A stretch of 64,000 nucleotides of DNA, taken from positions 1-64,000 of the forward strand of contig CAILUG010000034.1 in assembly GCA_903837345.1 (NCBI GenBank), written 5' to 3'. Source of the stretch: an uncultured Gammaproteobacteria bacterium (lineage in GTDB: Bacteria; Pseudomonadota; Gammaproteobacteria; Pseudomonadales; Pseudohongiellaceae). Position 1 is the first letter of the stretch; each line of letters opens with the position of its first letter. The notes beneath the pieces were generated by a model. That model made no database searches, was not told where the DNA came from, and was given only the letters and a program-made list of their open reading frames with translations. The translations under genes were made by a program, and so were the position numbers. Shown in pieces: positions 30,728 through 40,709 of the stretch.

Positions 30728-31813
30728 TCAACCGGCTACGTCTTTCCACACAAATAGCCTGATGGCCAGCAACAGCGCTATCGCACCCCAGACCACCAGT
30801 CCCAGCACATCAGGAAGGATATCCAGCAAGCTGGCACCATTGACGATGATTTCGCGGAAACTGGTTGCCACAAAACTGAGCGGCAGCAGTTTGGCGAGTG
30901 GCTGCACAAAGTGCGGCAGACTGTCGATCGGGTAGAAAATACCTGACAGCAGCATCTGTGGAAATGTTACCAGGTTGCCTATGGCCTGGATGGTTTCCTG
31001 GGTTTTGGCGATACTGCCAAGGCAGAAGCCGATACCTAGAAAAACGCCGGTGCCAAGCAGGATGATTGCCAGCAGTGAAGCCAGATTGCCGGCGATGGTG
31101 AGTTTAAGCAGGAATACACCAATTGCCAGTACAACGGACAACTGCACCACGCAGATGATGGCGCGCGAAATCACCAGTCCGCCAATAAAATGCTTCGGCT
31201 GGATCGGCGTGACAAACAACCGTTTGAGAATGCCTTTGCGACGGTATTCGACAATGTTGAAACCGCTGCCGGCTATGCTGATTGACATCAGGCTCATTGC
31301 CAGCAATCCCGGCACCACGAATGCCAGATAGTTCTGCGCACGTGCCTGCACATCCTCCACCTGCAGGCTGAACAGCGCCTGGGTACCACGCAAGGTACGC
31401 TCGGCGCTCACCAGCGCCTGGTCAAGCACCGGCATGATCAGTGCGAGCTCGCGCACTTGTGCTGCATCCACCACCACAGGCAGTTTGGTGGGAGTGCCGT
31501 TGTCCTGGAAGCTCTGCGGCAGTATCAGGGCCATCTTCAAATCGCCGCTATTTACCTGATTGCGCAAATCCGCTTCGCTGCCTTCGGTAATCCTGAACAA
31601 CGGATTCTGGCGCAGCGCGGTTTTGAAATTTTCAGAGAGGGTGTTGCCGGCATTATCGGCGATGCCGATCCCGAACGGCTCGGGTGCACGACTGCCGGTG
31701 AAGCCGAAAATGGCCATGAAAATCAGCGGGAACATCAGTGAAAACATGATGGCCCGGCGGTCACGTAAAAAAATCAGCAGGAAAGTACGCGTGAGTTTCA
31801 GGATCATGGCCAT
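30728..31813 (-). CDS. ABC-2 type permease
   Basis: A 361-residue permease with an N-terminal helix (IMFSLMFPLIFMAIFGFTGS), a periplasmic domain to about residue 150, and five C-terminal helices containing NIVEYRRKGILKRLFVTPIQPKHFIGG, typical of ABC-2 exporters such as YhhJ/DrrB types. The start at 31813 overlaps the ATPase stop by one base (TAATG) and has GAGGG upstream; the frame opening at 32053 lies inside the ATPase. The substrate is unknown. Confidence 0.88.
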   Translation of the reverse strand: MAMILKLTRTFLLIFLRDRRAIMFSLMFPLIFMAIFGFTGSRAPEPFGIGIADNAGNTLSENFKTALRQNPLFRITEGSEADLRNQVNSGDLKMALILPQSFQDNGTPTKLPVVVDAAQVRELALIMPVLDQALVSAERTLRGTQALFSLQVEDVQARAQNYLAFVVPGLLAMSLMSISIAGSGFNIVEYRRKGILKRLFVTPIQPKHFIGGLVISRAIICVVQLSVVLAIGVFLLKLTIAGNLASLLAIILLGTGVFLGIGFCLGSIAKTQETIQAIGNLVTFPQMLLSGIFYPIDSLPHFVQPLAKLLPLSFVATSFREIIVNGASLLDILPDVLGLVVWGAIALLLAIRLFVWKDVAG

Positions 31814-32577
31814 TATTCCCTCAGGGCCGAACCGGTGAGATGCAGAAACACATCTTCCAGATTGCCGTGACGTGGTACCGGTGGAACATCGGGAGCATAT
31901 TGCTGTATCAACTCTGCTGGTGTGCCGGCCGCAATCACCTTGCCGTGATCCATGATGGCAAGCCGGTCGCATAGGAATTCGGCTTCTTCCATGTTGTGGG
32001 TCGTCAGCACAATGGTCATGCCGCTGGCATTGAGTTCCAGCACCAGGTCCCACAAGTTGCGTTTGGCTTGTGGATCCAGACCGGTGGTGGGTTCATCCAG
32101 AAACAGCACCTTGGGTTCATTGACCAATGCACATGCAATTGAAAAGCGCTGCTTCTGGCCGCCCGAGAGACGATTGGGGCGAGCCTGCGCCTTGTCGAGC
32201 AGATTCACCTTGCCCAGCAGTGATTCCGGTGGCGTATTGCGGCCATACAACGCAGTGAACAGTGCCAGCAATTCGTGCAGCGACAGTTTGTCGAGATATT
32301 CATTCGCCTGCAGCTGCACGCCGATCTGCTGCTTGACCTTGTAAGGCTCGGTTTTCACGTCGAGACCGGCCACGCGTACTTCACCCCCGTCAATGTCGGT
32401 GAGGCCTTCAATCATTTCCAGGGTGGTGGTCTTGCCGGCGCCATTGGGACCGAGCAGTCCGAAAATTTCCCCTTCCGCGATCGACAGTGAAATGCCGGCA
32501 ACGGCTTCGAATGTTTCGCGCTTGTTGTCGGCGCGCGGATAGCGTTTGACCAGATTGCGTACTTCCACTATATCCAT
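31813..32577 (-). CDS. ABC transporter ATP-binding protein
   Basis: A 254-residue ATPase with Walker [12 protein letters not shown], signature LSGGQKQRFSIACAL, Walker B KVLFLDEPTTGLDP and the H-loop TTHNMEEAEFL. It pairs with the ABC-2 permease whose start overlaps its stop. A strong terminator directly upstream separates it from the ankyrin operon, so it has its own promoter in the short gap after 32602. Confidence 0.92.
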   Translation of the reverse strand: MDIVEVRNLVKRYPRADNKRETFEAVAGISLSIAEGEIFGLLGPNGAGKTTTLEMIEGLTDIDGGEVRVAGLDVKTEPYKVKQQIGVQLQANEYLDKLSLHELLALFTALYGRNTPPESLLGKVNLLDKAQARPNRLSGGQKQRFSIACALVNEPKVLFLDEPTTGLDPQAKRNLWDLVLELNASGMTIVLTTHNMEEAEFLCDRLAIMDHGKVIAAGTPAELIQQYAPDVPPVPRHGNLEDVFLHLTGSALRE

Positions 32578-32601
32578 TGCCTGCTTCCTTGGTTGAAAAC
32601 G

Positions 32602-32626
32602 AAAAACCCGGCAGCGCCGGGTTTTT
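32602..32626 (-). terminator. Rho-independent terminator of the ankyrin operon
   Basis: AAAAACCCGGC and GCCGGGTTTTT pair as an 11-bp stem around a 3-nt loop. Read on the minus strand the stem ends in five T residues, 20 bases after the ankyrin gene stop. It cleanly closes the operon at 32647-39107. Confidence 0.88.
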
Positions 32627-32646
32627 CTTCAGAGCCTGTCATGGTC

Positions 32647-34266
32647 TTATTTGATAGCAGCCGGGTTGCTGAAATCAACCGGGGAGGGTATCTGGCAGTT
32701 ATCTGTTTTCTGGCATTCCTCCTGCAGCATCCTGGCAGTATCAACAATCGGCTGCGCCGGAGGTTGCAGGAACGCGGGAGGGTAACGGCCCATTGCCAGA
32801 TCAAACGGTGTGCGTCCGGCGGTATCCTTGACCTGTTGTTTGATGCCATTGTCGATAAGGAATTTGGCAATTTTGGTCCAGCCGACTTTGGAGGCACCAT
32901 GCAGTGCGTTCTGGCCATCGGTAAGCTGAGCACCACGTATCGCCGGTTGCAGGCCTGCACCACGATCGGGATCGGTTACCACAGTCTTGGGCCGACGCGC
33001 AGGGTCACCGGTGAGGGCATTGATATTGGCACCATGCTCCAGCAGGATTTTGATGGTATCGATGCTGGCTTCCTGCGTCTTGAAGCGGCCGCGTGTCGGC
33101 TCGGCGGCCCAGTCGATGCCCGCTACTACCAGCAGCGGGGTATGACCACGGGCGTTGGGAAGGTCAACCAGTGCGCCATGTTCAAGCAACAGTTTTACAC
33201 TGGCGTTGTCCGCAGCACGGGCGGCGCGAATCAATGGTGTGGCACCTTCTGCCAGACTGTTGTCAGCACCACGATCAAAAATCGCATTGCGGTAGGGAGG
33301 ACGCACTTTCAACTGCTGATTGGGGTTGGCGCCTTTTTCCAGCAGCACTTTCGCAACATCGTAACCGGTTACCTTGTCTTCTGACGGAATGTCGGGCCTG
33401 CCGCCTGTTGGCAGGGTATTGAGATCAAGGGCATTGAACAACGGCGCTCGCCCGAACAGATCGAACTGGTTGACGTCGGCACCGGCTTTGATCAGTGCCA
33501 TCGCCGTTTCAAAATGCTGGTTCATAAGAGCCATGTTCAGCGAAGCGGTACGGTCAGGATCCGTGGCGCCAACATCAGCACCGGCTTCCTTGAGTATGGA
33601 AATACAGGCTGTGCAGCCTTCACGTGCTGCATAAAGCAGTGCCGTCAAACCGCCTTTGTTCATGTCTTTCGGACGCGGCTCACTCAGTGTGCGGCGATCC
33701 CACAGGCGCATGGCCCCTTGCAGGTTCACATCGGCGCCGTTCTTGATCAGCAGCTTCAGCATCTCGGTCTGGCTTTGCGCTGCAGCCCACATAACGGCGG
33801 TCTGGCCACCCCAGTTTTCTTTTGCATTGACCTTGGCCCCGGCTTTCAGGAGTGCTTGTGCTGCCGCCAGGTTGCCGCTGCGTGCTGCTACCATCAATGC
33901 TGTTTCACCTTCGACATTGCCCAGGTTGGGGTCGGCTTTGTGGGCCAGCAGCATGTCAACAATCACTTGCGAACCTTGCTGCACTGCTTCCGACAACGGA
34001 AAGGCGCCATATTCATTGCGCAAATTCGGATTGGCGCCCTTGTCGAGCAAAGCTTTCACCAAGTCTGCATCGCCTTGATAGGCAGCATAGAGCAAAGCCG
34101 AAGAGCCGTCAGTGCGCACTGCATTCACATCGGCGCCTGCGGCAATCTGCTGCATGGCTTCGGTTTTCTGGCCGTTGCTGACCAGTAGTGCCAGCTGGGA
34201 ACTGGCGGCATCCGCCACATTCATGGCTGCCAGCAACATGGCCGCTGCCAATAACTTCAATTTCAT
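32647..34266 (-). CDS. Exported ankyrin-repeat protein
   Basis: A 539-residue protein with a signal peptide (MKLKLLAAAMLLAAMNVADA) followed by about ten ankyrin repeats, for example DGSSALLYAAYQGDADLVKALLDKGANPN and GETALMVAARSGNLAAAQALLKAGAKVN. Several repeats carry long inserts (about residues 190-215, 280-330 and 400-440). Cysteines appear near the end (EECQKTDNCQ). Ankyrin arrays bind proteins; a periplasmic one at the end of a DUF1592-DUF1552 operon may scaffold those partners (inference). It is followed by a terminator. Confidence 0.88.
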   Translation of the reverse strand: MKLKLLAAAMLLAAMNVADAASSQLALLVSNGQKTEAMQQIAAGADVNAVRTDGSSALLYAAYQGDADLVKALLDKGANPNLRNEYGAFPLSEAVQQGSQVIVDMLLAHKADPNLGNVEGETALMVAARSGNLAAAQALLKAGAKVNAKENWGGQTAVMWAAAQSQTEMLKLLIKNGADVNLQGAMRLWDRRTLSEPRPKDMNKGGLTALLYAAREGCTACISILKEAGADVGATDPDRTASLNMALMNQHFETAMALIKAGADVNQFDLFGRAPLFNALDLNTLPTGGRPDIPSEDKVTGYDVAKVLLEKGANPNQQLKVRPPYRNAIFDRGADNSLAEGATPLIRAARAADNASVKLLLEHGALVDLPNARGHTPLLVVAGIDWAAEPTRGRFKTQEASIDTIKILLEHGANINALTGDPARRPKTVVTDPDRGAGLQPAIRGAQLTDGQNALHGASKVGWTKIAKFLIDNGIKQQVKDTAGRTPFDLAMGRYPPAFLQPPAQPIVDTARMLQEECQKTDNCQIPSPVDFSNPAAIK

Positions 34267-34293
34267 GCGTGTCTCCTGTTTCTTTGCGCTTGC

Positions 34294-35601
34294 TTATACT
34301 TCAGACAATTCGCCGGTGCTGTCGCCGAAGCTGGCTTCATTGACGCCAGCACGGTGCAGCAAAGTCAGCAGCAGGTTGGCATGTGGGGTGTCCTGTTTGT
34401 AGTGCAGGTGCTGTCCACCCTTGATAGTACCGCCGCCATGGCCGAATACTGCACTCGGCAACGGGTCATTGTTGTGCTTGTCGCTGTTGCTCATGTTGGC
34501 ACCGAACAGGATGATCGAGTTGTCGAGCACACTGCCGTTGCCTTCTTTCATGCCATCCAGTTTTTCCAGGAAAGAAGTGAACACCTTGGTGTGATAAGCC
34601 TGGACCAGAGTCAGCTTGGCCATTTTTTCAGGGTCTTCACCATGATGGGACAACGGATGGAATGCTTCTGCCACACCGATATTGGTATAGGTGCGCATGC
34701 TGACTTCCCGTTCCATCATGTAGGTGGCGACATGGCTGAGATTGACCTGGAAGGACAGGGCGACCAGATCAAACAAGGACTTCAGGTGATCTTCAAACAA
34801 GGGCGGGATGCCCACCGGCGCGGTCGGGATGTCGACATTGCTGGTATCCTGGTGCTGCATTTTCACAACCCGTTGTTCGATTTCACGCACTGATTCCAGA
34901 TAGTTGCTGACCATGGCGCTATCGGTCGCACCGAGTTTGCGCTGCAATGAAGCAGCTTCACCCATTACCGAATCCAGGATGCTGCCGTTCTGGTTGACGA
35001 TGGCAGCGCGTTCTTTGGCGTCATCACCCAGACCAAACATCTGGTAGAACAATTTGCGGGGATTGTTCTCTATAGGCAGACCTTCATGCGGTGTACGGAA
35101 AGCCAGTGAACTGCCGAATGCACAGGAAAAGCCTGGCGCGCAGGGGCCGTTGTCGGGTGTGCCGACTTCGATTGACGGGAATGTGGTGGACTTGCCGATC
35201 TGGCGGGCGGCAATCTGGTCGCAAGTGATGCCCTTGTTGGGGTCCTGGTCTTTTGGAGACACGCAACGCAGCCACGTGCCGGCAATGATGCCGTGCGGGT
35301 CGTTGCTTTCAGCCGGCTTGTTGCGCAACCCCGACACAATTGTCATCTTGTCCCTGAACTTTTCTGCCGGCTTGAGAATTTCCATCATCTGGAAATCACG
35401 GCCGGTAGCAGCCGGTGTCCAGTTTTTCATTACTGCACCGTGCGGGAAAAATACAAAGCCCATGCGGGTCTGTGGTTTGGCAGCCGTTTGTGCCCAAGAA
35501 GTGGAGGCCGGAACCATTGCATCCAGCAAGGGGAGGGCTATTCCGGTGCCCAGCCCGCGCAGCAAGGTACGACGTGACAGATGCTTTTTGGTAATGAACA
35601 T
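34294..35601 (-). CDS. DUF1552 family exported protein (Tat signal)
   Basis: A 435-residue DUF1552 member with a twin-arginine signal (SRRTLLRGLGTGIALPLLDA). Family stretches include MGFVFFPHGAVMKNWTPAATGRDF, GLRNKPAESNDPHG, and SDKHNNDPLPSAVFGHGGG. The function is unknown; DUF1552 resembles the DUF1501 family, which I believe shares an alkaline-phosphatase-like fold, but I cannot verify this here. It is 15 bases after the DUF1592 gene. Pairing of DUF1592 and DUF1552 genes is a recurrent arrangement. Tat export implies folding, perhaps around a metal, before transport. Confidence 0.88.
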   Translation of the reverse strand: MFITKKHLSRRTLLRGLGTGIALPLLDAMVPASTSWAQTAAKPQTRMGFVFFPHGAVMKNWTPAATGRDFQMMEILKPAEKFRDKMTIVSGLRNKPAESNDPHGIIAGTWLRCVSPKDQDPNKGITCDQIAARQIGKSTTFPSIEVGTPDNGPCAPGFSCAFGSSLAFRTPHEGLPIENNPRKLFYQMFGLGDDAKERAAIVNQNGSILDSVMGEAASLQRKLGATDSAMVSNYLESVREIEQRVVKMQHQDTSNVDIPTAPVGIPPLFEDHLKSLFDLVALSFQVNLSHVATYMMEREVSMRTYTNIGVAEAFHPLSHHGEDPEKMAKLTLVQAYHTKVFTSFLEKLDGMKEGNGSVLDNSIILFGANMSNSDKHNNDPLPSAVFGHGGGTIKGGQHLHYKQDTPHANLLLTLLHRAGVNEASFGDSTGELSEV

Positions 35602-35616
35602 GGCTCTATTCTCCTC

Positions 35617-38118
35617 TCAATGGGACTGGGTGCTGGTGTTGTCAGCCAGCGCTGCAACTGTTGGTAGCGGCACGGTGTTCTTGAGGAACAGATCACTGTG
35701 GACAATGCTCTCGATCATGGCGGAGAAGCGGTAGTTCTGGGCTGCAGTATCGTGCACAACGCCACGCACGACCGGCATGTCGCGTGCATCCAATGTGCGA
35801 CCGAGTGCATAGATCATCATCTTGCCGGCCAAACCTTGCACGAAGTTGTTGGGACGGGCCATCAAGGCGGTGCGCAATTCGGCCGCACCTTTCACACTGG
35901 AGCCATTCGGCATGATGCCGGAAGCATCCACTGGTGTGCCGGTGAAACGGTCCATGTCACGCCAGCGGCCAACAGCATCGAAATTGTCGAGCGCAAAGCC
36001 GAGTGGATCCATAACCGAATGGCAGGAGAAACATACCGGATTTTCGCGGTGGCGTTCCAGGCGTGCACGTACCGTGGTTGCGACCTGACCCTTGCCGTTT
36101 TCTTTAAGCGCCGGCACGTTGGCCGGGGGAGTTGGTGGAGGTGCACCCATGATGACTTCAAGAATCCAGGAACCTCGCAAGACCGGGCTGGTACGGTTGG
36201 GGTAGGCCGTCACCATCAATACGCCGCCTTTGCCGAGCAGGCCGAAGCGGTTGCTGTCGGTCAATTGCACACGCCGGAAACGGTCACCTTTGACATCCTT
36301 GATACCGTAATGCAGCGCCAGTCTTTCATTGAGAAACGTATAGTTGGCATCCAGCAACCGCATCAGGTTCTTGTCTTCGCGGAAGATGCTGTCAATAAAC
36401 AGACTCAGTTCCTGCTTGAAGTCCGGCCGCAAATCACCGGCACCTGCGGCGTAAGGGAAGATGGCCGGATCCGGATTCAACTCATCCAGCTTGCTCAGCT
36501 TAAGCCATTGATAGGCAAAATTTTCCGCCAGTGCACTGGAACGTGGATCGGCCAGCATGCGCTTGACTTCCGATTCCAGCACATTGCGATCCTGCAATTT
36601 GTTGTTTATGGCAAGTTCCAGCAATTTTTCATCCGGAATGCTGCTCCACAGGAAGAATGACAGACGCGAGGCAAGGTCTATGCTGTTCAGAGTGTATATC
36701 TCGCCTGGTTTGGCATTGGCAGGTGCCACTTCGGCGCGATACAGGAAATTGGGACTGGCAAGAATACGGATCAATGCGCGGCGCATGCCTTCATCAAAAC
36801 CACTGTCGGTGCGGCCATCGTTGAAGAACTTCATCAGCGGTTGCAGGTCTTCGTCGGTCAGCGGGCGACGATAGGCACGGGTGGCGGTCTGCGTAATGAT
36901 CTGTTTGCCACAACTGATTTCCTCATCGCTGTTTTTGGGCTGGCAGCTATAAAGCCGTTGCCGCGCGGGGGTCATGCTTTGACCGGTAACCTTGAAAGGC
37001 CCGCGGATTTCCACCGATGGTACATCCAGTATACGGTCCTGGACCGAGCCGGGAATGAAGTGCTGCAACTGGTCATCGGATTCGGCGAAAGACCTGCGTA
37101 CAAAAGACACACCGACCTTGTGCGGACCGGCTGTGGTGCTGAAACGGATGTTCTTGGTGCGGCCGTTGATGTCATCCATCGGCGGCCCCTGGTTCAGATC
37201 GAGTGCGATCCGGTCCTTGTCACCACCAATGACGGTTTGATAAACCTTTTCGCCATCAACGGTTACCACCATCCTGTTTTCGAATTCTATGTTGTACATC
37301 CACGCAGACAGGTTGAAATCGCCGATATTGACAGCGTATTCACCGTCTGCAGGGAACCAGTGATCTACCAGCAGGCCACCGCGCGTGCCAAGCGGCAGCC
37401 CGTCGATATGGAATTGCTGGGAGCCGCCGCCCTCTGCACGTATCGGCAGGGATTCCTTGGGGCTATATACCTGGCTGCCAAGTGTCGGAGTAGGGTCGCC
37501 AACGACCTGCTCACTGATCTTGCGGGCTGCTGAAATGTATTGGTCAATGAAAGCCGGTGATACAGAAAGTGCTTCGGCTACGTTGTCAAAGCCCGCGCTG
37601 TTGGAATCCTGCGGCAGCAGTTGGGTGGCATCAACCTTGATGCCGAACAGATCACGGATTGTATTGGCGTATTCCTTGCGGTTAAGGCGGTGGATCGCAA
37701 TGTGTGACGGATTCTCATGACCCTTGCCGGCTTCATCCAGATAGTTCTCCATCCAGTTCACAAACGCATCTGTCCTGGTTTCATCGGGACGTGTGTGATT
37801 GGGCGGCGGCATCATGCGCCCGCGCAGTTTCACCAGTACTTTTTCAAACAGTTCCGCAGACATCGGCACGTCGGATGGCTTGACTTCAGTGAAATCGATT
37901 CCGCCCGAGAAATCATCCAGGTTATGGCACTCGGTGCAGTAGTCCTTCAGATAGCCCCAGACATTGTCTGCCTTCTTGAGCGCTTCAAAATCATGTTGTT
38001 GTGCTTGCTGGGCCTGCGCTGTGCTCCAGGCAACTGTCATGGCCACGGCGGCGATGGTGGTTTGCAGACAAGTGTGAATCCTGGATCGGAATAGTTGCCG
38101 TTTTTGGACGCTGCTCAT
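35617..38118 (-). CDS. DUF1592 family periplasmic heme-binding protein
   Basis: An 833-residue exported protein. A signal peptide (residues about 16-36) is followed by a c-type heme motif CTECH (61-65), a DUF1587-like segment (HRLNRKEYANTIRDLFGI), a beta-rich module (about residues 245-375) resembling a ligand-binding domain, then DUF1595, DUF1592, DUF1588 and DUF1585-like regions. A second CFSCH motif lies near residue 696 in the MDPLGFALDNFDAVGRWR block. This Planctomycete-like domain string is of unknown function; heme binding and electron transfer are likely. The ATG at 38118 has AAGG upstream and is preferred to 38220, which overlaps the gene before. Confidence 0.88.
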   Translation of the reverse strand: MSSVQKRQLFRSRIHTCLQTTIAAVAMTVAWSTAQAQQAQQHDFEALKKADNVWGYLKDYCTECHNLDDFSGGIDFTEVKPSDVPMSAELFEKVLVKLRGRMMPPPNHTRPDETRTDAFVNWMENYLDEAGKGHENPSHIAIHRLNRKEYANTIRDLFGIKVDATQLLPQDSNSAGFDNVAEALSVSPAFIDQYISAARKISEQVVGDPTPTLGSQVYSPKESLPIRAEGGGSQQFHIDGLPLGTRGGLLVDHWFPADGEYAVNIGDFNLSAWMYNIEFENRMVVTVDGEKVYQTVIGGDKDRIALDLNQGPPMDDINGRTKNIRFSTTAGPHKVGVSFVRRSFAESDDQLQHFIPGSVQDRILDVPSVEIRGPFKVTGQSMTPARQRLYSCQPKNSDEEISCGKQIITQTATRAYRRPLTDEDLQPLMKFFNDGRTDSGFDEGMRRALIRILASPNFLYRAEVAPANAKPGEIYTLNSIDLASRLSFFLWSSIPDEKLLELAINNKLQDRNVLESEVKRMLADPRSSALAENFAYQWLKLSKLDELNPDPAIFPYAAGAGDLRPDFKQELSLFIDSIFREDKNLMRLLDANYTFLNERLALHYGIKDVKGDRFRRVQLTDSNRFGLLGKGGVLMVTAYPNRTSPVLRGSWILEVIMGAPPPTPPANVPALKENGKGQVATTVRARLERHRENPVCFSCHSVMDPLGFALDNFDAVGRWRDMDRFTGTPVDASGIMPNGSSVKGAAELRTALMARPNNFVQGLAGKMMIYALGRTLDARDMPVVRGVVHDTAAQNYRFSAMIESIVHSDLFLKNTVPLPTVAALADNTSTQSH

Positions 38119-38183
38119 TGCATTTACCTTGTTGCTTGATTCTGTGAATACGATTGGGTTTGACACGGATTGATCCATATTTG

Positions 38184-39107
38184 TCATGCATCCGGGGTCA
38201 GGTGTGGAATAAGGCTCCAATGCGCCAGTGTTATGAATGCATCAGCTGAACCATATTGTGCCTCCCAGGCTGCAGCCGGTTTGGCAGCCACGACTTGTTC
38301 CACTGTATTGGCTTTCTGGAACATGTTGCGCACTGTGGTGAAGATCTTTGAATACATGTCTCGTTGCACCTGCAACTCGGCCCGGGTAATGGGTTTGCCG
38401 GTGGCAGGAATGATCAAGGTACCCTTATTGGCTACACTCAACAGGATTTCCAGGCCATCAACCTGGCCGCCGATCCAGCCGCCGGTCCACCAGTCGAGGA
38501 AGGGCCAGCCATCGGTGCTGAGTGCGCCACCGGCATGCAGAATATTGGCCTCAGGCAGATAGACATACATGTCACCATCAGTATGCGCCTGACGCAGATA
38601 ACCGAATTCGACCTTGATGTTGCCATGGTTGAATTCACCATAGTTGTAGAAGACATCATTGGGACGGGCAGCTTCAGGGAGTGGCTTGTAGACCTTGTCT
38701 TCCTGCAGACGCTTGACCTGGGTGCTGAGCCATTCGCGGGTGTTTTCATGGGCAAAGATTCGGGTATTTTTGTTGCCCAGCTCTTCATTGAGGCCGGTCT
38801 GCTCAGGATGCCAGTGGGTGTTGATGAGTGTGGCAAACTTGCGGCTTTCCATGCTTGATTCGATGGTGCTACGCAATTCTTTCGCGCCGCTCTTGAGACC
38901 GCCATCGACCACCAACAGTTCACCGTTGGCAGCCTTGGTTACCAGGACATTGCAAGCACCGCCACTGATCAGGGCCAAGCCAGGATGCAGCATCTGCACC
39001 TTCAAGGCAGCGCTTTGTGCCATGACTCGTTGCAACAGCGCAGCGGGGAGGAGCGCCGCACTGCCGGCAAGTGTGGAAAACTGCATGAAATTTCTACGAT
39101 TTAACAT
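38184..39107 (-). CDS. Exported metallo-beta-lactamase-fold protein with altered metal site
   Basis: A 307-residue MBL-fold protein with a twin-arginine-type signal (NRRNFMQFSTLAGSAALLPAALL). The fold's metal motif is present but changed: His98-x-His100 are kept, while the usual Asp-His pair is Glu102-Gln103 (THWHPEQTG). His175 (QAHTDGD) is kept. The last ligand position, normally a GHG-type histidine, reads PATGK (234-238). The Zn1 site is thus complete and the Zn2 site lost. It is the first gene of the exported operon and is divergent from an MFS transporter. Its activity cannot be predicted from the family. Confidence 0.83.
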   Translation of the reverse strand: MLNRRNFMQFSTLAGSAALLPAALLQRVMAQSAALKVQMLHPGLALISGGACNVLVTKAANGELLVVDGGLKSGAKELRSTIESSMESRKFATLINTHWHPEQTGLNEELGNKNTRIFAHENTREWLSTQVKRLQEDKVYKPLPEAARPNDVFYNYGEFNHGNIKVEFGYLRQAHTDGDMYVYLPEANILHAGGALSTDGWPFLDWWTGGWIGGQVDGLEILLSVANKGTLIIPATGKPITRAELQVQRDMYSKIFTTVRNMFQKANTVEQVVAAKPAAAWEAQYGSADAFITLAHWSLIPHLTPDA

Positions 39108-39344: not shown

Positions 39345-40709
39345 ATGACCGATCCACGCGAAATAATTGACAAATCAGCGATGACGATGCTGCAGTTCGT
39401 GATCGTCGCGATCACGGTAATGCTCAATGCCCTCGATGGATTTGATGTGCTGGCCATCAGTGTATCCGGCCCCGGCATCCGCACCGAATATGGCATCGAC
39501 CAGGCCCAGCTTGGCTTTGTACTGTCGATGGAATTGATCGGCATGGCCATTGGCTCCATCTTTCTGGGCGGCGTAGCCGACAAAATCGGCCGTCGCAACA
39601 TGACACTGGGTTGTCTCGTCGTCATGGCCTCCGGCATGTTTCTGGCGACCACATCCACCTCACTCATGATGCTGATGATCTGGCGCGTTTACACCGGTCT
39701 GGGAATCGGCGGCATGCTGTCTACCACCAATGCTGTGGTGGCAGAATTTTCCAACAATCGTCAGCGCGGTTTCTGTATCTCGATGATGGTGATCGGCTAT
39801 CCGCTCGGCGGCATCGTTTGCGGTGAAGTCGGCAAAGCGCTGTTGAATGCCGGCGCGCTGAACTGGCGGGTGATGTTCACCACCGGAGCCGTGTTGTCTG
39901 CCGTGCTGATCCCGTTTGTGTATTTCCTGGTACCGGAATCAGTGCATTGGCTGACACGTCGGCAACCGCAGAATGCCCTGCAACGCATCAATGCTGCATT
40001 GAGCAAGCTGGGTCATAACGTGATTTCAGCACTGCCGGTCCTGCCGGTGGAAATCCGAGCCAAATCAGTGTTCGACATTTTTTCACCGGCACTGGCGCTT
40101 ACCACTATTCTGGTAACAATGGCCTACTTCTTCCACATCATCACTTTCTACTACATCCTCAAGTGGACCCCGACCATCGTTACCACCATGGGCATCCCGG
40201 CTGCGGCTGCGTCGGGCGTACTGACCTGGGCCAATGTCGGCGGCGCCCTCGGGGGTGCGGCATTTGGCATACTTACCACCCGGGTAGGTCTGAAGCCACT
40301 GACCATCGGCATCCTGGCCATGACAATGCTGGGTGTAGCGCTATTTGGCCAATCTGCCCATGAAGTGAACCAGTTGAGCTATCTGGCGGCGTTTGCCGGC
40401 TTCTTCGGCAATGCCGGCGTGTCCGGCTTGTATACGATAGTGGCTTATGTGTTCCCGACCCATGTGCGGGCAACCGGCACCGGATTCGTGATCGGTGTTG
40501 GTCGTGGCGGGGCTGTGCTGGCTCCGATCCTGGCAGGCTACTTGCTGAAGGGTGGTGCCACCCTGGGCACCGTAGCCCTTGTGATGGGTATTGGTTCACT
40601 GCTCGCTGCAATCACACTGGTCTTTCTCAAGCTGGGTACCAACAAGCCGGCTGACGGGACAGTTACTGATGGCAAAGCTGCAGGCAAACTGGATATTTCA
40701 ATGGCTTGA
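39345..40709 (+). CDS. MFS transporter, aromatic acid:H+ symporter-like
   Basis: A 454-residue major facilitator with twelve hydrophobic segments. The [16 protein letters not shown] motif in helix 1 (with the Asp pair seen in aromatic acid symporters) and the [17 protein letters not shown] loop 2-3 motif place it near the AAHS group (PcaK/MhpT type). It should import a small organic, perhaps aromatic, acid across the inner membrane. AGGGGG lies 8 nt before the ATG. It is divergent from the exported MBL/DUF1592 operon, with shared repeats between them, and ends in a terminator. Confidence 0.87.

Follow-up and report, generated by a model that had tools for sequence, protein, structure and literature searches.

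DUF1592 and DUF1552 proteins abound in bacteria from the environment, yet no function has been assigned to either family since its naming. The closest described systems are the planctomycete-type PSCyt/PSD gene sets with DUF1552, which have the same DUF1592 domains and the same partner gene as the locus described here and occur in many copies per genome; for these sets, with the PSCyt2/PSD1 proteins as a parallel, function is unassigned (PMC5615132, PMC2754498). In Verrucomicrobia, uncharacterized gene families accompany the PSCyt genes, which also adjoin sulfatases and carbohydrate-binding modules (PMC5615132). A second comparison is offered by Cbp2D and Cbp2E of Cellvibrio japonicus. In the available text of the reports on these proteins (PMC8981238; PMC12542752), Cbp2D is an exported cytochrome protein with a DUF1587 domain (PF07626, equivalent to PSD3 of the DUF1592 protein studied here) that is required for growth on insoluble cellulose, and one of its cytochrome domains reduces LPMOs. 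Cbp2D additionally has CBM2, X158, X183 and FN3, its likeness to DUF1592 is by shared Pfam name alone, and the same available text makes no mention of DUF1552, ankyrin or MBL partners.

Here we analyze a 64,000-nucleotide stretch of DNA (the window) from an uncultured gammaproteobacterium whose genome assembly comprises 3.26 Mb in 63 contigs. Unlike the planctomycete-type sets, the cassette found here lies in a small proteobacterial genome, has an ankyrin gene as a constant third member and, in one subfamily, an MBL-fold gene as a fourth. The DUF1592/DUF1552 pair is already known; our literature search found no paper describing an ankyrin gene as its constant companion, an MBL limited to one subfamily or the 10-21-fold expansion reported below. 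As defined here, the unit has three core genes, joined in one subfamily by an MBL gene, and is common to Pseudomonadota and Acidobacteriota.

Four adjacent genes for predicted exported proteins

The window encodes MBL, DUF1592, DUF1552 and ankyrin proteins in four consecutive minus-strand genes (Table 1). Every coordinate given for them in the first-pass annotation was confirmed, and the gaps between them are exactly 65, 15 and 27 bases. The DUF1592 gene starts at an ATG; an alternative TTG at 38220 would run into the MBL gene.

Table 1. Features of the cassette and its neighbors, in window coordinates.
Feature	Position	Strand	Size and basis
MBL-fold protein, predicted twin-arginine leader	38184..39107	-	307 aa; ORF list, PF00753 (Lactamase_B)
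DUF1592 diheme c-type cytochrome, predicted Sec-like leader	35617..38118	-	833 aa; ORF list, Pfam, AF2, conservation
DUF1592 heme motif 1, CTECH, residues 61-65	37924..37938	-	invariant in 56/56 homologues
DUF1592 heme motif 2, CFSCH, residues 696-700	36019..36033	-	invariant in 56/56 homologues
DUF1552 (HXXSHH) protein, predicted twin-arginine leader	34294..35601	-	435 aa; PF07586, AF2, Foldseek, conservation
HxxSHH motif of DUF1552 (His315, Ser318, His319, His320)	34642..34659	-	alignment of 76
Exported (predicted) ankyrin-repeat protein, Sec-like leader	32647..34266	-	539 aa; PF12796 and PF00023
Terminator-like hairpin 3′ of the ankyrin gene	32601..32627	-	-19.9 kcal/mol, z -4.5
Divergent MFS transporter, aromatic-acid symporter-like; neighbor outside the cassette	39345..40709	+	
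ABC transporter ATPase, downstream neighbor	31813..32577	-	synteny kept in orthologous loci
ABC transporter permease, downstream neighbor	30728..32053	-	listed ORF start overlaps the ATPase gene; ORF list and orthologous-locus comparison

The operon had also been described as ending in a strong terminator. The hairpin does fold with the energy given in Table 1; however, its T-run lies mostly within the stem, a consensus terminator scan missed it, and three orthologous loci have no equivalent hairpin at this position. We regard it as a probable terminator of this copy alone. No RNA elements were found across the window.

All four products are predicted to be exported, as previously proposed, the MBL and DUF1552 proteins by twin-arginine leaders and the DUF1592 and ankyrin proteins by Sec-like leaders, which were judged by eye. 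A crude signal scan missed the short ankyrin leader of the window and nearly all DUF1552 leaders. All 76 homologues of DUF1552 keep the twin arginine, and the leader is unusual in that an invariant Asp27 lies within its hydrophobic stretch. TatC and CcmF are both encoded in the source genome.

The cassette recurs within the source genome and across phyla

We observe 14 DUF1552 genes and 15 DUF1592 genes in the source genome. Every one of the DUF1552 genes, in the window and at 13 other places, adjoins both DUF1592 and a relative of the window ankyrin gene, and with 14 of 14 sitting in such a cassette the grouping is far beyond chance. The MBL gene is present in eight of these cassettes (window, L011, L012, L013, L015, L016, L020 and L021) and missing from six (L009, L010, L014, L017, L018 and L019). 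Elsewhere the genome has a solitary ankyrin gene (L139) and, where a contig ends, a truncated DUF1592 ORF (L138).

The expansion is a feature of the lineage: ten further genomes of the genus, with sizes of 2-3.5 Mb, contain 10-21 DUF1552 copies each, a neighboring genus (g2) contains 16-17, and other genera of the family contain 0-5. In a sample of 398 Pseudomonadota genomes, DUF1552 occurs in 9, namely the source genome and 8 further genomes that each have a single copy. Such copy numbers in small genomes suggest that these bacteria depend on catabolic chemistry overlooked by present annotation.

By scanning named genomes we collected at least 80 related loci, the nearest relatives among the matches listed, and these fall in Gammaproteobacteria, Alphaproteobacteria and Acidobacteriota. 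The MAG titles of four of them (L069, L076, L081 and L092) read 'Klebsiella pneumoniae' and are evidently wrong labels. Among the matches listed, 40 related loci with full flanks have the ankyrin gene in 38 cases, DUF1592 in 36 and MBL in 33; when the source genome is included, 56 of 59 full-flank cassettes have the ankyrin gene and 54 of 59 have DUF1592. The first-pass annotation had taken the four genes to act together and had named a lack of association elsewhere as what would refute this; we find the opposite, a recurring unit. The same gene sets in several bacterial groups point to a widespread redox system. As a single set of four, the claim stands for the DUF1592, DUF1552 and ankyrin core, whereas the MBL is a frequent accessory that a whole subfamily lacks.

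The same division is seen in co-divergence. Pairwise distances of the DUF1592, DUF1552 and ankyrin proteins correlate both in the source genome (r 0.62-0.77, n=14) and in the related loci (r 0.84-0.87, among the matches listed), and none of 2000 permutations reached the observed value. MBL distances track the others in the related loci (r 0.71-0.77, among the matches listed) but not within the source genome (r 0.07-0.26, n=8). DUF1592, DUF1552 and the ankyrin protein are inherited together as a core triad, to which the MBL is a looser but regular partner.

A maximum-likelihood tree of 89 DUF1552 proteins has two sides with full support. When cassettes with full flanks or with MBL are counted among the matches listed, MBL is found in 65 of 71 on the side with the window copy, against 0 of 7 on the opposite side (Fisher p 6e-7, with related rows), so that only one of the two DUF1552 subfamilies has the MBL. 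The 14 paralogs of the source genome are scattered over the tree. Since at least 10 label changes are required and most of these proteins are closest to those of other lineages (for example L021 with an alphaproteobacterial Euryhalocaulis MAG), the tree indicates that the paralogs are old and not recent copies. The window copy has 36-56% identity to the other paralogs, which have differing surroundings.

A survey for the order MBL-DUF1592-DUF1552-ankyrin had been suggested; we find that the genes associate across phyla but that their order varies by clade. The MBL gene comes first in the part of the tree around the window copy, lies 3′ of DUF1552 in the L020 clade and 3′ of the ankyrin gene in the L021 clade, and each of these three orders is also found in Acidobacteriota. 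At least four MBL placements occur (before, between, after and divergent), and the ankyrin gene lies before or after the DUF1592/DUF1552 pair. Two close orthologues of the window cassette, L026 and L027, have lost DUF1592 and retain about 230 bases between MBL and DUF1552, so DUF1592 is dispensable in cis there.

It could be argued that adjacency is merely inherited synteny or a by-product of block duplication and that the genes have no joint function, since close orthologues of the window cassette keep unrelated neighbor genes too. The association of the same genes across phyla in these rearranged orders, and the divergence and differing surroundings of the paralogs, make this almost certainly wrong.

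Conserved heme motifs and candidate metal sites

The DUF1592 protein has the layout PSCyt1-PSD3-beta-sandwich-PSD5-PSD4(DUF1592)-PSCyt3-PSD2 from Pfam and the structure model, with PSD3, PSD5, PSD4, PSCyt3 and PSD2 all above Pfam cut-offs. The two CxxCH heme motifs reported previously are borne out, as all 56 homologues have exactly two. Also invariant in these homologues are Met103, His690 (near motif 2) and a cysteine pair (392/403); Met103 is the likely sixth ligand of heme 1. Covalent heme on DUF1592 is plausible, as the genome encodes CcmF of the Ccm system, which attaches c-type hemes. The AF2 model is confident (pLDDT 87, pTM 0.85), and comparing it with solved folds gave no match; the best, a CBM35 beta-sandwich at E 0.07, is only a hint. 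Searches by sequence found no solved relatives of either DUF1592 or DUF1552.

The DUF1552 protein matches the Pfam HXXSHH family at 256.7 bits against a cut-off of 30, and the HxxSHH motif is conserved. In the 76-row alignment His103, His315, His319 and His376 are invariant and His54, His320 and His398 nearly so; His315, Ser318, His319, His320 and His376 are invariant in the 14 paralogs of the source genome. This conservation of histidines suggests a metal site. The AF2 model (pLDDT 85) has a weak likeness to the alkaline-phosphatase/sulfatase superfamily: Foldseek matches to sulfatases (glycan sulfatases among them), LtaS-type enzymes and YejM reach E 7e-6 and probability 1.00, but at a TM-score of ~0.4 with an rmsd of ~10 A or more. 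Profile comparison gave no residue-level alignment and no sequence similarity to sulfatases, and the sulfatase signature C/S-x-P-x-R is not conserved, a loose pattern occurring at scattered positions in 30 of 76 sequences. We therefore rejected sulfatase membership: the DUF1552 model weakly resembles the fold of sulfatases, LtaS and YejM, but the protein has conserved histidines and not the sulfatase signature.

Profile matches of the MBL protein are to BcII-type structures, and we used the BcII chain from the profile-match alignment as the reference for a metal-ligand census of 63 cassette-linked sequences. The zinc-1 histidines His116, His118 and His196 are kept in 56, 57 and 58 of the 63, respectively. 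At the second zinc site the final His is lost in 58 of 63, Gln usually replaces His121, and nearly all sequences have Asp or Gly for Cys221. The window protein, with an HWHPEQ motif, has an intact three-His zinc site and a degenerate second site without the final metal His. Two families were considered and rejected, subclass B1 metallo-beta-lactamases (54.1 bits against a curated cut-off of 200, with the two-zinc site incomplete) and the SoxH-related quinoprotein-relay metallohydrolases of TIGR04559 (44.9 bits against 280). The cassette MBL shares the fold, the three-His zinc site and (by prediction) export with both; however, it falls far below both cut-offs and has mostly lost the second zinc site.

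These features bear on whether the system is hydrolytic, with DUF1552 a genuine sulfatase- or phosphoesterase-like enzyme, the MBL a second hydrolase and the cytochrome secondary. The superfamily match, which takes in glycan sulfatases, the three-His zinc site kept in ~90% of MBL copies, and the sulfatases and carbohydrate-binding modules beside verrucomicrobial PSCyt genes (PMC5615132) would all fit. However, conserved histidines stand in DUF1552 in place of the signature, the source genome has only 3 ordinary sulfatase-superfamily genes, and the cytochrome is almost always kept (54 of 59, among the matches listed). We consider a hydrolytic system distinctly unlikely.

The ankyrin protein as a possible scaffold or heme helper

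The ankyrin protein has tandem ankyrin repeats above the Pfam cut-offs. These repeats were the sole PADLOC match, with nothing for MBL, DUF1592 or DUF1552, and an anti-phage defence system was rejected as a candidate.

That the ankyrin protein is the scaffold of a complex is a guess, and the precedent for a heme or assembly helper is equally good. Cj1386, an ankyrin protein, hands heme to KatA (PMC11442138), similar ankyrin proteins bind catalase and raise its activity, and the same source cites the periplasmic AnkB of Pseudomonas aeruginosa for KatB (PMC10294975). In these cases an ankyrin-repeat protein serves a heme protein, outside the cytoplasm for AnkB; in contrast to the cassette, the partner is a catalase and not a c-type cytochrome, Cj1386 is described as cytoplasmic, and the likeness is one of description. 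The cassette ankyrin protein could by analogy deliver heme or aid maturation, leaving DUF1592-DUF1552 alone as the working enzyme. However, with the Ccm system present an additional chaperone is in principle unnecessary, we identified no heme-binding residue in the ankyrin protein, and its distances follow those of DUF1552 (r 0.77 in the source genome, 0.87 in the related loci) as strongly as those of DUF1592. We regard the helper role as unlikely, though worth keeping in view.

Neighboring genes and a proposed redox role

Electron transfer is suggested by genes for cytochrome b561, cytochrome c' and PQQ dehydrogenases that flank cassettes. A cytochrome b561 gene comes after the ankyrin gene at four loci (L041, L057, L064 and L077) and downstream of DUF1552 at a fifth (L054), and cytochrome c' is close by in 4 of these 5 proteobacterial loci. 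An independent case is plasmid pMSHV of Sphingobium herbicidovorans, with the order DUF1592-DUF1552-cytochrome c'-cytochrome b561. Within the source genome, a small cytochrome-like gene overlaps the end of DUF1552 at L018 and a GSDH-cytochrome gene follows the ankyrin gene at L017. Exported CxxCH ORFs are ~5 times denser within 2 kb of cassettes (21 in 280 kb) than at 2-8 kb (8 in 570 kb), a count that takes in related, non-independent loci; all exported ORFs are also denser near cassettes, by ~1.5-fold. The oxidoreductase role suggested earlier fits these nearby cytochrome and quinoprotein genes together with the two invariant heme motifs.

The PQQ (quinohemoprotein) dehydrogenase is the commonest recurrent neighbor (21 of 93 loci, among the matches listed). 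As the source genome has ~30 such genes, their presence beside 2 of its 14 cassettes, with 2-3 expected, is no excess; we rejected this enzyme as the main partner and retain it as weak support. Other neighbors in the source genome include genes for LigAB, a carboxylesterase, GMC, FMN and molybdopterin enzymes, a retinal-pigment-epithelium-type oxygenase, GH3, a TonB receptor and an MFS transporter, and this raw listing lends an oxidative-catabolism flavor.

Our best reading, which we hold tentatively as quite possible, is that these four genes are one example of an exported redox cassette that occurs repeatedly, with one cassette per substrate. DUF1592 would be a diheme electron-transfer or redox subunit whose beta-sandwich may bind carbohydrate-like ligands, and DUF1552, holding the metal site, would probably act as its catalytic or substrate-binding partner. 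The ankyrin protein would tether the two or aid heme loading, and the MBL, with its one intact zinc site, might process the product or an ester or lactone intermediate. Electrons would pass to cytochrome c'/b561, other periplasmic cytochromes or quinohemoprotein dehydrogenases and then to the quinone pool. Retention of 14 divergent cassettes would be explained if each serves a different substrate. A bolder form, which we think rather unlikely, is that DUF1592-DUF1552 is a new exported heme-dependent enzyme class acting on a family of natural substrates. Its mechanism would differ from those of known oxygenases, dehydrogenases and hydrolases, the ankyrin and MBL proteins would be dedicated partners, and each cassette would have one substrate. 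The unit as defined here offers specific proteins for co-expression and makes a clear genetic test possible.

Substrate specificity itself could be doubted if the proteins instead protect or modify the cell surface in envelope stress or a structural role, and a DUF1552 gene, RB9955, is listed in a Rhodopirellula stress transcriptome (PMC2754498). We give this little credence: 14 ancient divergent copies in differing surroundings look like substrate diversification, and the raw listing of their neighbors includes a ring-opening dioxygenase, a carboxylesterase, molybdopterin, GMC and FMN oxidoreductases, TonB receptors and MFS transporters.

The tie to the divergent organic-acid importer drawn in the first-pass annotation found no support. 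The importer is conserved only beside direct orthologues of the window cassette and is not among the top neighbor families of other cassettes, and with synteny so limited we rejected aromatic-acid import as the purpose of the cassette. Against TIGR00895 (aromatic acid:H+ symporter) the neighboring MFS protein scores 307 bits, with a cut-off of 418.55, and is thus a relative and not a member of that family.

Cassette variants and neighbouring families

Two orthologues of the window cassette, L026 and L027, were found to lack DUF1592 while retaining the MBL, DUF1552 and ankyrin genes, the L026 ankyrin gene being partly cut by the contig end. Cassette genes are also left over elsewhere in the window's own genome, G000 (L138 and L139).

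Gaps and leftover cassette genes
Feature	Locus:position	Remark
Gap at missing DUF1592	L026:3150-3400	~230 bases
Gap at missing DUF1592	L027:9770-10001	~230 bases
Shortened DUF1592 ORF	L138:134-2017	At contig end
Ankyrin paralog	L139:8476-10248	No DUF1552 nearby

The DUF1552 tree places four loci titled Klebsiella pneumoniae (L069, L076, L081 and L092) among environmental Gammaproteobacteria, and these are evidently mislabelled MAGs. In the DUF1552 leader (window gene 34294-35601, residues 10-32), R10, R11, L23, P24, L26, D27, M29 and P31 are invariant. We observe that this conservation is at the level of an active site, beyond the needs of an ordinary signal peptide.

With ~30 PQQ-dehydrogenase genes in G000 and no PqqE match there close to the cut-off (59 vs 381 bits), gene content suggests that the organism may depend on external PQQ or synthesize it via an unrecognised route.

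Two small exported families recur near cassettes (L009, L012, L015, L017, L018 and others): DUF6152 and an unnamed family of 250-300 aa with no Pfam match. The two often adjoin each other.
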